A DNA stretch of 64,000 bases from Microvirga mediterraneensis (GTDB lineage Bacteria; Pseudomonadota; Alphaproteobacteria; Rhizobiales; Beijerinckiaceae). The stretch is from positions 4,015,501 to 4,079,500 of the forward strand of contig NZ_JACDXJ010000001.1 of the NCBI RefSeq assembly GCF_013520865.1, written 5' to 3'. Below are positions 663 to 32,871 of this stretch, piece by piece. Numbering within the stretch: position 1 is the stretch's first letter; the number at the start of each line of letters is the position of its first letter. The notes below the pieces were generated by a model. It worked only from the letters and a program-made list of their open reading frames with translations, did no database searches and was not told the origin of the DNA. The translations under genes and the position numbers were made by a program.

Positions 663-1622
663 ATGAGCAACACTGACCTGTCACCTGTCCGAATCGCCAA
701 GGCGCGGCACCTGATCGACCCCGTCTTCATGAACTCCGCCCTGCGGACGTCGCCTGCTATCGACCGGCATCTCGGGCTGTCCCTGTGGCTGAAGGACGAG
801 ACTGAAAATCCGATCCGCTCCTTCAAGGGCCGAGGAACCAGCCTGTTCGTCGCCAGCGACCTTGGCGGGCCCACAACCCTTGTCGCGGCCTCCGCAGGCA
901 ATTTCGGCCAAGGCTTGGCCTATGCCGCCGCCAAAGCCGGGCATCGGGTCATCGTCTTTGCCGCCGAGACGGCGAGCCCGCTCAAGATCGACGCCATGCG
1001 CAAGTTCGGGGCCGAGGTCATCCTCCACGGGCAGGATCTCGATGCCGCCAAGGCCCGAGCGAAGACCTTCGCCGCCGAGCGGAGCTTCCGGTTCGTGGAG
1101 GACGGGGCGGAGCCTGCCATCGCCGAGGGTGCGGGCACGATTGCCATGGAAATCACAGACGCGCTGCCGGAGATCGATGCCGTGTTCATTCCGCTCGGCA
1201 ACGGCGCTCTCGCCTCCGGCATGGGGTGCTGGCTCAGGCACCGCTCGCCCAGGACCCGCATCGTCGCCGTCGCGGCCGAAGGAGCGCCCTGCATGGCACA
1301 TTCCTTTACGGCAGGGCGCCCGATGGAGACACCCTCGGTCGACACGATCGCCGACGGCATCGCCGTGCGGGTGCCGGTGCCGTTCGCGGTCGAGTCCTTG
1401 AAGGAGACCGTCGACGAGGTGGCGCTCGTGAGCGATCGGGCCATCCTGGAGGCCATGCGTCTCATTCGGCAGCATCTCGGCCGCGTGGTGGAGCCTGCGG
1501 GCGCCGCAGGCCTGGCCGGACTTCTGACCCGACGACGGGAACATGCGGGTTCCCGTGTAGCAACGGTGCTATGCGGGGCTAACCTCACCCCGCAGCAGAT
1601 CACAGCCTGGCTGCCGGATTAG
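663..1622 (+). CDS. PLP-dependent threonine dehydratase-like enzyme
   Basis: This 319-residue fold-type II PLP enzyme belongs to the serine/threonine dehydratase or diaminopropionate ammonia-lyase-like group. The Schiff-base lysine is K55 in RSFKGRG, preceded by the typical LKDETENP segment. AASAGNFGQGLAYAA matches the substrate/cofactor loop, and IPLGNGALASG stands where the glycine-rich phosphate loop is expected. The chance that it is catabolic threonine dehydratase proper is limited: it is short and has no C-terminal ACT domain. Substrate could be threonine, serine or another beta-hydroxy or amino acid. The divergent Lrp/AsnC gene suggests induction by an amino acid. The ATG start has no strong Shine-Dalgarno. 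Confidence 0.85.
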   Translation: MSNTDLSPVRIAKARHLIDPVFMNSALRTSPAIDRHLGLSLWLKDETENPIRSFKGRGTSLFVASDLGGPTTLVAASAGNFGQGLAYAAAKAGHRVIVFAAETASPLKIDAMRKFGAEVILHGQDLDAAKARAKTFAAERSFRFVEDGAEPAIAEGAGTIAMEITDALPEIDAVFIPLGNGALASGMGCWLRHRSPRTRIVAVAAEGAPCMAHSFTAGRPMETPSVDTIADGIAVRVPVPFAVESLKETVDEVALVSDRAILEAMRLIRQHLGRVVEPAGAAGLAGLLTRRREHAGSRVATVLCGANLTPQQITAWLPD

Positions 1623-30188: not shown

Positions 30189-30262
30189 CCCAGAGTGCTT
30201 CATGCAATCGAGATCACCGGCACAAGGCCGGTGATGACGTGAAGAGGCCGAGAGAACTCACC

Positions 30263-31552
30263 TCAACACTCGATGGGCTCTTCACCGAGCAGCTCGATCC
30301 CGAAGCCGGAGAGGCCCACATAGGACCGGCTCGACGTCGCGAGATTGCGGATCGACGCGACGCCGAGATCCCGCAGGATCTGTGCGCCGAGGCCGATCTC
30401 GCGCCATTGGCTGGACCGCATCGCTTCGGACTCCGTCTCGTCGCTGTCGGAGAACGAGGTCGTCGGCACGCCGGCGGTGCCGTCGCGCAGGTAGACGAGG
30501 ACGCCCCGGCCCTCCTTGACGAAGCGCTGGAGGGCCGCGTTCACGGTCTTGCCGCCCTCGAACACGTCGGTGAGCGCATTGGCCCGGTGCAGGCGCACGG
30601 GAATGTTCGTGCCGTCGCCGATGCGGCCATGGACGAGCGCGATGTGCTGCACACTGTCGAACGGCGTCGAATAGGCATAGCCCGTGAACGAACCCCATTG
30701 CGTCTCGACCGGGAAGGTGGCGATCCGCTCGACGAGCTTCTCCCGCGCCTGACGGTAGGCGATGAGGTCGGCGACCGAGATGCGTTTGAGCGCGTGCTGC
30801 TCGGCGAAGGCGTCGATCTGCGGCCCCTTCATGACCGTGCCATCGTCGTTGGCGAGCTCGCAGATCACGCCGACGGGCGGCAGGTTCGCGAGCTTGCAGA
30901 GGTCGACGGCGGCCTCCGTGTGGCCGGAGCGCATGAGCACGCCGCCATCCTTGGCGATCAGCGGGAAGACATGGCCGGGGCGCACGAAATCGGCCGCACC
31001 CATGTTGTTGTTGGCGAGCGCCCGCACCGTGTTCGAGCGCTGCTCGGCGGAGATGCCGGTGGTCAGCCCGTGCTTCACGTCCACCGTGACGGTGAACGCC
31101 GTGCCGAGCGGAGCGTCGTTCGACTGGACCATCGGGTCGAGCCGCAGGCGTCGGGCCTCCGCAACGGTAAGCGGCGCGCAGACGATCCCGCAGGTGTTGC
31201 GGATGATGAAGGCCATCTTCTCCGGCGTGCAGAGCGAGGCGGCGACGATGAGGTCGCCCTCGTTCTCGCGGTCGTCGTCGTCGGTCACGATGACGATCTC
31301 ACCACGGGCGAAAGCCTCGATGGCTTCGGTAACGGAGTGGGACATCCATGTCTCCTTGGCGGATTCGGGCAGGAAATCGTTGGGTGTGACGGCCCCGCGC
31401 GTTTCGCGGGCGATCACTTCGGCGGTGTCGCGGGACAGCCAGGCGTGGTCCGAATTGCACATCTGGGTGATGGCCCCGGGCGTCACGCCAATCCGGCGCG
31501 CGAACGCGACGCGCGACACACCGTTGCGGGACAACCAGTCAGCCAGTTTCAT
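30263..31552 (-). CDS. ribB: RibB-X (DHBP synthase) with N-terminal HTH
   Basis: The 429-residue frame encodes three parts. Residues 1-62 are a Cro/YdaS-like helix-turn-helix (MKLADWLSRNGVSRVAFARR, then IGVTPGAITQM). Residues 70-270 are 3,4-dihydroxy-2-butanone-4-phosphate synthase (TDDDDRENEGDLIVAA acidic metal site; RPGHVFPL, RSGHTEAAVDL). Residues 280-429 resemble GTP cyclohydrolase II but lack its zinc cysteines (RLHRANALTDVFEG), as in the RibX-type domains of other Rhizobiales. It makes the four-carbon riboflavin precursor. An in-frame ATG at 31345 has an excellent Shine-Dalgarno (AAGGAGA, 6-7 nt), so plain RibB-X may also be made. A perfect palindrome lies 25 bp upstream of the long start. 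Confidence 0.88.
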   Translation of the reverse strand: MKLADWLSRNGVSRVAFARRIGVTPGAITQMCNSDHAWLSRDTAEVIARETRGAVTPNDFLPESAKETWMSHSVTEAIEAFARGEIVIVTDDDDRENEGDLIVAASLCTPEKMAFIIRNTCGIVCAPLTVAEARRLRLDPMVQSNDAPLGTAFTVTVDVKHGLTTGISAEQRSNTVRALANNNMGAADFVRPGHVFPLIAKDGGVLMRSGHTEAAVDLCKLANLPPVGVICELANDDGTVMKGPQIDAFAEQHALKRISVADLIAYRQAREKLVERIATFPVETQWGSFTGYAYSTPFDSVQHIALVHGRIGDGTNIPVRLHRANALTDVFEGGKTVNAALQRFVKEGRGVLVYLRDGTAGVPTTSFSDSDETESEAMRSSQWREIGLGAQILRDLGVASIRNLATSSRSYVGLSGFGIELLGEEPIEC

Positions 31553-31576
31553 GAAGCTGAATTAGCCGAGGCGTGG

Positions 31577-31595
31577 ATTTTAGTAAAACTAAAAT
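31577..31595 (-). promoter_or_regulatory. Palindromic operator candidate upstream of HTH-RibB-X
   Basis: Perfect 8-bp arms ATTTTAGT and ACTAAAAT are separated by three A residues, in an AT-rich island within GC-rich flanks, 24 bp before the start codon of the HTH fusion. A TTGCAA box further upstream could be a -35 element. It is the natural candidate binding site for the encoded HTH (autoregulation), or for another repressor. Confidence 0.6.
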
Positions 31596-31755
31596 TTGCA
31601 ATGGAGGCTTTGCAAAAACCGCCTGAAATGGAGGGCGGGAACCAGCGAGCCCTCCTCGTCGCCACCGGCCTTGTGCCGGTGATCCCGATGGCCTGTAGCG
31701 CCGCCCCCCCTATCGAGATGGCCGGCACGAGGCCGGCCATGACGTCGAGGAGGCC

Positions 31756-32871
31756 TCAGCCCTCGAACGGCCAGGACGGCCCCTGCCCCACCTGGCCGCG
31801 ATGGCGCAGGAGGTGATCGGCCAGGACGCAGGCGACCATCGCCTCGCCGACCGGCACCGCCCGGATGCCCACGCAGGGGTCGTGCCGCCCCTTGGTCCGC
31901 ACCTCGGCCTCGCCGCCCGTGCGGGTGACGCTCGACCGGGGGGTGAGGATCGACGAGGTCGGCTTCACGGCGAAGCGGCACACCACGGGCTGGCCGGTGG
32001 AGATGCCGCCGAGCACGCCGCCGGCATGGTTCGACAGGAAGGTCGGCGCCCCCTGATTGCCGGGGCGCATCTCGTCCGCGTTCTCCTCGCCGCGCAAAGC
32101 TGCCGCCGCGAAGCCGTCGCCGATCTCCACGCCCTTGACCGCGTTGATGGACATCAGCGCCGAGGCGAGGTCGGAATCGAGCTTGCCGTAGATCGGCGCG
32201 CCGAGACCCGCCGGAACGCCCTCGGCCACGATCTCCAGGACCGCCCCGATGGAGGAGCCGTCCTTGCGCAGGCCGTCGAGATATTCCTCGTAGAACTGGG
32301 CCGCCTTCGCATCCGGGCAGAAGAACGGATTGCGCGCCACCTCGTCCCAATCCCAGTTGTTCCGGTCGATGGCATGCGGCCCCATCTGGACGAGCGCGCC
32401 GCGGATGGTGATGCCCGGCAGTACCTTTCGGGCGATGGCGCCCGCGGCCACGCGGGCGGCGGTCTCGCGGGCCGAGGAGCGCCCGCCGCCGCGATAGTCG
32501 CGGATGCCGTATTTCACGTCGTAGGTGAAATCCGCATGCCCCGGCCGGTAGGAATTCTTGATCTCAGAGTAGTCCTTGGAGCGCTGGTCCACGTTCTCGA
32601 TCAGGAGCGCGATCGGCGTCCCGGTCGTCACCTGCCGTCCCGTGCGCTCGTCGATGAAGACACCCGACAGGATCTTGACCTGGTCCGGCTCCTGGCGCTG
32701 GGTCGTGAAGCGCGACTGACCCGGACGGCGGCGGTCGAGCTCCGCCTGGATCTCGGCGGCCTCGAGCGGGATCATGGGCGGGCAGCCATCGACCACGCAG
32801 CCCAGGGCAGGCCCATGGCTTTCGCCGAAGGTGGTGACACGGAACAGGTGGCCGAACGTATTGTGGGACAT
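31756..32871 (-). CDS. aroC: Chorismate synthase
   Basis: The 371-residue enzyme converts 5-enolpyruvylshikimate-3-phosphate to chorismate with reduced FMN. The start is ATG 32871 ([20 protein letters not shown], the conserved first motif). [40 protein letters not shown] and the C-terminal [30 protein letters not shown] are the remaining signatures. Full length. It lies in a minus-strand housekeeping run (J-protein, fabI, histidine phosphatase, aroC, ribB). FMN dependence gives a loose metabolic link to the adjacent riboflavin gene. Confidence 0.97.

Follow-up and report, generated by a model that had tools for sequence, protein, structure and literature searches.

A Cro-like head on the riboflavin enzyme RibBX of Microvirga mediterraneensis and a putative operator at its own promoter

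The HTH-RibBX gene

The window, that is, the whole stretch of 64,000 nucleotides analysed here (Microvirga mediterraneensis, contig NZ_JACDXJ010000001.1, positions 4,015,501 to 4,079,500 of the forward strand), carries on its reverse strand a gene in which a Cro-like helix-turn-helix (HTH) domain is joined to the riboflavin enzyme 3,4-dihydroxy-2-butanone 4-phosphate (DHBP) synthase, RibB. An initial annotation, made from the letters of the sequence, had described an uninterrupted HTH-RibB frame. This is what we find, since the open reading frame (ORF) 30263-31552(-), of 429 aa, is open from the ATG at 31552 to its stop. The extent then given to the feature, 31343-31600, is correct but too short, the unit running from about 31600 to 30263. 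Its parts, with the upstream neighbor, are the following (in brackets, the basis of each assignment).

31577..31595, no strand: putative operator dyad ATTTTAGT-TTT-ACTAAAAT, core TTTAG-N5-CTAAA (conservation, co-occurrence with the HTH, symmetric changes)
31582..31587, minus strand: predicted -35 box TTTACT (TTGAAC or TTGACT in other loci), within the operator (82-locus profile)
31559..31564, minus strand: predicted -10 box TAATTC, separated from the ATG by 6 nt (82-locus profile)
31550..31552, minus strand: first codon of the long form, at which transcription is predicted to begin as well (C at -1; rarity of Shine-Dalgarno (SD) sequences)
31373..31552, minus strand: Cro/C1-type HTH, residues 1-60, MKLADWL...GAVTPNDF (HTH_3 of relatives; phage Cro matches; ratio of nonsynonymous to synonymous divergence, dN/dS)
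31346..31372, minus strand: variable linker, residues 61-69, containing the internal SD (dN/dS; length variation; low predicted local distance difference test score, pLDDT)
31352..31357, minus strand: internal SD AAGGAG (GGAG enrichment in linkers)
31343..31345, minus strand: internal ATG, predicted start of a short (plain) RibBX (start codon in 114/114 fusions)
30755..31327, minus strand: DHBP synthase (RibB) domain, residues 76-266 (PF00926, 6e-82)
30284..30727, minus strand: X domain, a GTP cyclohydrolase II (GCHII) relative without the cysteine motif, residues 276-423 (PF00925, 5.6e-28)
31756..32871, minus strand: aroC (chorismate synthase; name read from the sequence), upstream and in the same direction (203 nt from the aroC stop to the HTH ATG)

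A Pfam search gives the domain order as DHBP synthase (DHBP_synthase, residues 76-266) followed by a GCHII-like domain (GTP_cyclohydro2, residues 276-423). The first is the sole PF00926 match in the genome, and PF00925 has a stronger match at another gene, a separate RibA-like gene. A third, weaker GCHII-like match lies in a 539-codon frame (G000:C1:4466801-4467256, plus strand). The GCHII cysteine motif SECLTGDVFGSRRCDC of the RibBA 4i14 aligns opposite HRANALTDVF, which holds no Cys; in GCHII, the cysteines of that motif bind zinc. Because the second domain has lost the motif seen in 4i14, we regard the enzyme as a RibBX, described in the passages seen of PMC10012899 as RibB fused to a GCHII-like X domain without that activity.

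The assignment of the head relies on its relatives, as 32/41 sequences of the HTH alignment give an HTH_3 match at 0.001 (best 9.8e-8). The HTH is under purifying selection, with a dN/dS of 0.076 among 26 Microvirga loci (dN 0.049 and dS 0.646, the values for RibB being 0.018 and 0.427). This set comprises the window and 25 Microvirga-titled loci, all found with the HTH as query, and relatives without the head (HTH-) thus fall outside it. From the structure model we have used the HTH part alone, which has helices at residues 3-9, 14-21, 25-33 and 41-50 (modest confidence, with pLDDT of 58-83 in blocks of ten); linker residues 57-71 are below pLDDT 50. Codons 61-72 combine a high dN (0.171) with a low dS (0.264), figures drawn from 12 codons only.

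Comparisons beyond the genus are based on 82 loci with the head (HTH+), which are the window, those of L049-L128 with the head, and L154-L187 minus four CoaBC loci. Together with the named loci L002-L033 they make up 114 fusions, which partly duplicate genomes under G handles, so that the 91 unique linkers are the safer count; L180-L182 and L184 (CoaBC) and L188-L193 (stand-alone or other) are excluded. Linker length varies from 4 to 16 codons among the unique linkers. We have seen no stop or frameshift between HTH and RibB, as the hits of at least 93 bits in the order and the 36 hits of the genus lie in frames of at least 397 codons, and the translated fusions show no stop in either HTH or linker. 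Short HTH-only ORFs of 72-87 aa ending in the linker also occur (P0131, P0133, P0135, P0138, P0143, P0146 and others), some on long contigs; they may be true splits, frameshifts or contig ends.

The operator and the HTH

The palindrome ATTTTAGTTTTACTAAAAT lies exactly where it had first been noticed, at 31577-31595, 24 nt before the ATG at 31552. At up to 2 mismatches it is present in a single copy in the 5.35-Mb genome (reversed-pattern controls, 0), and for its 17-bp core the expected number in the window is 0.02. One operator site in the genome therefore points to single-gene control; a wider regulon was considered and rejected on this count. The HTH profile itself has only one second match in the genome, a distant 73-codon frame (E 2.5e-5).

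In the 26 Microvirga loci the 17-bp core is identical throughout (26/26) and ends 25 nt before the ATG in 25/26. A position of the 19-bp dyad carries 1.99 bits, as compared with 0.53 in the 38 positions upstream and 1.27 downstream, in the -10 region. Among 48 genomes of the genus the dyad (at most 1 mismatch) was found in 33, once in each, always on the HTH's own contig and 23-25 nt before the HTH ATG, and the HTH was found in 36. Dyad and HTH thus go together: the former occurs in 33/36 HTH+ and in 0/12 HTH- genomes (Fisher 6.5e-9, kinship uncorrected). Two of the HTH+ exceptions, G436 and G334, have a symmetric variant dyad (ATTTAAG...CTTAAAT) in place of the standard one, and in the third, G1071, the contig starts within the HTH. 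Variant sites within the genus are those of G314, G436, G334 and G1061.

For the other genera we have used a scan blind to the HTH, with the pattern TTxAG-N5-CTyAA, at most one mismatch in the 8 fixed letters, within 75 nt, and the best site retained for each locus. A site was found in 73/82 HTH+ loci, compared with 1/29 HTH- loci, and two control windows gave 0/82 each; over the next 300 nt upstream one was found in 5/82 HTH+ loci. The 29 HTH- loci, like the HTH+ loci of group f1, were drawn from the best-scoring among the matches listed and are not a random sample; of the 12 HTH- genomes in the genus, 10 were retrieved. Sites of this type in other genera show the operator changes SYMMETRICALLY. 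The two free letters, x and y, are complementary in 62/73 sites (C/G 37, T/A 21, A/T 2, G/C 2), and in these 62 loci the best predictors of x are residue 30 (0.88 bits) and residue 26 (0.75 bits) of the head. Specifically, Q30/G26 goes mostly with x = T, and A or G30/A26 with x = C. In the model both residues belong to helix 25-33, which is the second of the HTH pair. In 41/73 loci, the window included, the best site overlies the -35 box, its end lying 20-28 nt before the ATG.

The proposal of the initial annotation that the HTH reads the palindrome is thus supported by comparison: the distribution over genomes, the symmetric changes of the site and the covariation with the HTH all point to it. 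The coupling of a putative operator at the gene's own promoter to the HTH can be considered well supported at the level of sequence comparison. The HTH- locus L053 (G466), which has HTH+ sister lineages, contains TGAGCCGGGCTTAA just before its ATG, possibly a decayed operator.

Promoter and starts of translation

The promoter profile was built from the 82 HTH+ loci, anchored at the HTH ATG. TTG is the commonest sequence at -35 to -33, TA occupies -12/-11 (60%), T is found at -7, and C stands at -1 in 64/82. A combined promoter score of at least 7 is reached by 77% of the loci vs 7% of letter shuffles. The spacer between the -35 and -10 boxes is 17 nt long in 58/82, and in 59/82 there are 6 nt between the best -10 and the ATG. 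At the first start codon an SD with a dG of -5 or lower is present in 4/114 fusions only. Because the promoter geometry puts +1 at the A of the HTH ATG, the mRNA looks leaderless, and its 5' end would fall at this codon or one to two nucleotides away.

A leaderless mRNA leaves no room for a flavin mononucleotide (FMN) riboswitch, and RF00050 has no match upstream of the gene, either in the window or in the genome. Elsewhere in the order, 0/10 of the FMN-riboswitch loci examined have the RibB motif within 1.5 kb on either strand; the frames that follow the riboswitch in 8/10 look, by eye, like RibD, RibH or EamA-type transporters. Avoidance between the fusion and the FMN riboswitch falls short of significance (4/28 vs 55/171, p 0.07), a count which assumes that all 199 riboswitch-scanned genomes were also in the HTH-searched set. 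The earlier claim that the fusion replaces the FMN riboswitch usual for ribB is weakly supported: the genome has no RF00050 and a leaderless message would leave no place for it, but none of the ten riboswitch loci has a RibB motif nearby and the avoidance is marginal.

The second start proposed in the initial annotation has proved to be widespread. In the window, AAGGAG (31357-31352) stands 6 nt before the in-frame ATG at 31345. An in-frame start codon is present in the linker window before RibB in 114/114 fusions (85 ATG, 27 GTG, 2 TTG), with an SD of dG -5 or lower in 107/114 and of -7 or lower in 78/114. In the control, 753 windows of equal width inside the HTH, a start with an SD reaches these values in 61 and 18 cases. 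GGAG is found within 21 nt before the start in 66 of the 91 unique linkers vs 236/5358 (4.4%) HTH windows. Our reading is that the internal SD and start codon would be a retained ribosome entry site.

Autoregulation, origin and related systems

We consider it likely, from these comparisons of sequences, that the one gene yields both an autorepressing HTH-RibBX enzyme and plain RibBX; that HTH-RibBX sets its own production level is very probably the case. The RibB dimer would present two Cro-like HTHs to the dyad TTTTAG-N5-CTAAAA, and the dyad, once bound, would keep RNA polymerase from the -35 box that it covers, which would result in repression. The long form would be translated from a leaderless message starting at about the HTH ATG, and ribosomes may also enter at the internal SD and the ATG at 31345 to make plain RibBX, which would be unable to bind DNA. 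Messages reading through from aroC would give mainly the plain enzyme, because the HTH ATG has there neither a 5' end nor an SD. The X domain or the active site may tune the binding via flavin or substrate.

A number of observations weigh against this interpretation. The head of the window protein stays below the Pfam cut-off of 23 bits for HTH_3 (15.7 bits for the whole protein, 19.9 as a 69-aa piece), and the 429-aa structure model is poor in the RibB part (mean pLDDT 62, predicted template modelling score 0.43). A strict E. coli-type promoter scan found nothing in the window, the boxes TTTACT and TAATTC being unscored. A TTxAG-type site is absent in 9/82 HTH+ loci (the four of group f23, which have another dyad, and L065, L099, L101, L105 and L113), x and y are not complementary in 11/73 sites, and the HTH- genome G466 has one non-complementary site with 1 mismatch. 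The covariation of HTH and operator is inflated by kinship and has exceptions in G272 and G241, and a sign test on independent pairs gives p 0.125 with 5 pairs only. In 31/73 loci the best site lies upstream of the -35 box, its end 44-57 nt from the ATG. A proximal partner is present in 13 of these 31 at up to 1 mismatch and in 22 at up to 2 (in a control stretch, 0 and 1 of 31), and in the remaining ones the proximal site is degenerate or lacking. Since the proximal sites exceed the control, it seems that two sites spaced about 26 bp apart are in use in many genera. Lastly, selection on the internal SD at the codon level was looked for and rejected: there is no excess, synonymous shuffles matching the observed SD in 45% on average, and for this reason the signal of the internal start appears to reside in the amino acids and start codons and not in codon choice.

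This last result bears on an alternative in which autorepression is real, only the long protein is made, and the internal SD and start codon have been left over from the ancestral RibB gene. The internal start does sit at the N terminus of RibB, and HTH- relatives have mostly M or V at the equivalent place, both of which fit a leftover as does the lack of extra selection in codon choice. We nevertheless regard it as unlikely, since the start persists in all 114 fusions and the SD in 107, over eight family groups (f23 included), despite variable linkers of 4-16 codons. Moreover, L032 has ATA where L031 has ATG, and in it GGAGG-TTCC-GTG follows directly after.

According to another alternative the fusion activates, or represses only with a ligand such as FMN bound, and there is no plain autorepression. 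The 31 loci with the best site upstream of the -35 box, often with a weaker proximal partner, would suit activation or cooperativity, and in Shewanella the X domain of RibBX is reported to regulate RibB activity through a mechanism described as unknown (passages seen of PMC10012899). Over the -35 box, where the best site lies in the window and in 41/73 loci overall, is a usual position of a repressor site, and this alternative too appears improbable. Distal-site loci, for example L082-L087 and L156-L179, often have a weaker proximal site about 25 nt before the ATG, a possible cooperative pair.

That the palindrome belongs to another regulator and stands before HTH-RibB by coincidence is very improbable: the link of HTH and palindrome is indeed one of sequence, yet the palindrome occurs in 33/36 HTH+ vs 0/12 HTH- genomes, the symmetric changes follow HTH residues, and beyond the fusion the genome matches the HTH profile only in the distant 73-codon frame. 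Finally, that the ATG at 31345 is the true start and the HTH frame upstream of it untranslated or decayed, for which the lack of an SD at the first ATG could be invoked, is hardly credible given the dN/dS of the HTH (0.076), the absence of stops in HTH and linker and a promoter that places +1 at the first ATG.

In the order, the HTH profile was found at 1e-10 or better in 80 of 397 genomes. Strong hits (about 94-131 bits, in frames of at least 397 codons) form seven groups (f1, f20, f28, f35, f36, f42, f50), and the loci fetched from each of them are HTH-RibB. Among the weaker hits, f23 is HTH-RibB (4 loci) and f32 is HTH-CoaBC (7 loci by eye, one of them, L235, confirmed with TIGR00521 at 406 bits). 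The nearest named relatives are Microvirga species. In the class, 13 of 385 genomes have the HTH at 1e-8, eight of them distant. Two of the 13, G531 and G753 (group f94), lie outside the order and have strong hits in 443-codon frames, probably the same fusion, by transfer or through a wider history.

On a tree of 56 RibBX cores the presence of the HTH has changed at least five times, in whichever direction, and HTH and operator agree in 53/56 rows. Over 5 independent pairs the operator follows the HTH in 3.8 on average and never goes the opposite way. The gene aroC lies within 1 kb upstream in 28/29 HTH- and in 52/82 HTH+ loci, and the median gap from its stop to the start of the protein match is 20 nt in the former and about 82 nt in the latter.

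A phage origin of the head is likely, because the only PDB matches of the HTH profile at E <= 0.1 are phage Cro (8co2 and 8c7k, E 0.002-0.003) and relatives with 29-46% identity were found on 64 viral contigs. A derivation of the exact operator from the sampled viral relatives was considered and is unsupported (TTxAG-N5-CTyAA before 2/63 vs 1/63), and a search with the L188 protein for a viral source of the exact operator found none. L188 itself (1232-1504, minus strand), a Cro-like gene that stands alone, has a divergent XRE-type frame next to it and is preceded by TTTCAGCTTGACTGAA; this region looks like a prophage immunity region with the half-site of the RibB fusions.

Near the ATG of the diverged f23 fusions (L183, L185, L186, L187), and covering the -10, stands a different dyad, around ATTAGC...GCTAAT; these fusions are perhaps an independent recruitment. 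The viral relatives L242 and L252 have CAGCAATGCTAAT, similar to the f23 dyad. In the HTH-CoaBC loci L235, L237 and L238 the dyad ATTAC-N7-GTAAT (L236, one mismatch) covers a TAATAT box that is 6 nt from the ATG. Because dyad and box are found at these loci, a coenzyme A enzyme seems to have the same design of head, operator and leaderless-type start.

A broader scenario is put forward tentatively, as we hold it somewhat more doubtful than not. A Cro-type phage head may have been domesticated onto RibBX early in the order, giving a leaderless dual-start gene that amounts to a full feedback loop (long enzyme-repressor, short enzyme and operator). Several lineages would have gained or dropped head and operator together, the headless ribBX then riding behind aroC. 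The design would have arisen again in the second HTH-RibB type and in HTH-CoaBC, so that control at the DNA level by fusing an HTH to a coenzyme enzyme would be an option taken repeatedly in place of riboswitches, and the X domain could serve to sense a flavin or a substrate.

Enzyme-autorepressors are a known kind, with the archaeal RbkR (HTH and riboflavin kinase), BirA, PutA and NadR as examples. The likeness is a DNA-binding domain on a cofactor or metabolic enzyme, which in those systems represses its own gene. HTH-RibBX differs from them in the enzyme, the Cro/C1-type HTH, the leaderless-type promoter and the conserved internal start for the enzyme alone, and it has a single operator site in this genome. 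Phage Cro-type repressors are the only PDB matches of the head at E <= 0.1, but here the HTH is fused to an enzyme. The FMN riboswitch is a well-known control of bacterial riboflavin genes; as said, window and genome lack it.

Like the RibBX of PMC10012899, the window protein combines RibB with a degenerate GCHII core that has lost the cysteine motif, in a genome with a separate RibA-like gene; unlike it, it has a DNA-binding head, an operator and a second start, which the passages seen of that paper do not mention. In Wolbachia, the DNA-binding proteins wBmxR1 and wBmxR2 bind the promoter of ribA, also a bifunctional riboflavin gene (PMC3518464, seen in part). They are separate proteins, unlike the HTH-RibBX head, the ribA reporter is regulated positively according to a section title, and their site, of 20 nt, lies 109 nt upstream of the ATG (same source). 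In the literature searched (among it PMC3518464, PMC10012899 and PMC12542839, in part, most subscription journals being beyond reach) we have found no description of an HTH-RibB fusion, of its operator or of the two starts; the kind is thus known and this member of it undescribed there. In the text of a 2025 review the terms 'DNA-binding', 'transcriptional repressor' and 'RbkR' each occur 0 times.

Discussions of bacterial riboflavin genes usually present them as riboswitch-controlled. If HTH-RibBX does repress its own gene, a widespread enzyme that reads the promoter of its own gene would explain the control of vitamin B2 in those genomes of the order that have no FMN riboswitch, and the puzzling X domain would gain a role that can be tested. 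It would also provide a natural case of a repressor head and its operator coming, going and changing together.

As for the surroundings of the gene, no intrinsic terminator was found in 31500-31800. GC-rich, repeat-like hairpins flank the gene on both sides, at 31718-31740 (ATGGCCGGC...GCCGGCCAT) and at about 30210-30240 (ACCGGCCTTGTGCCGGT).

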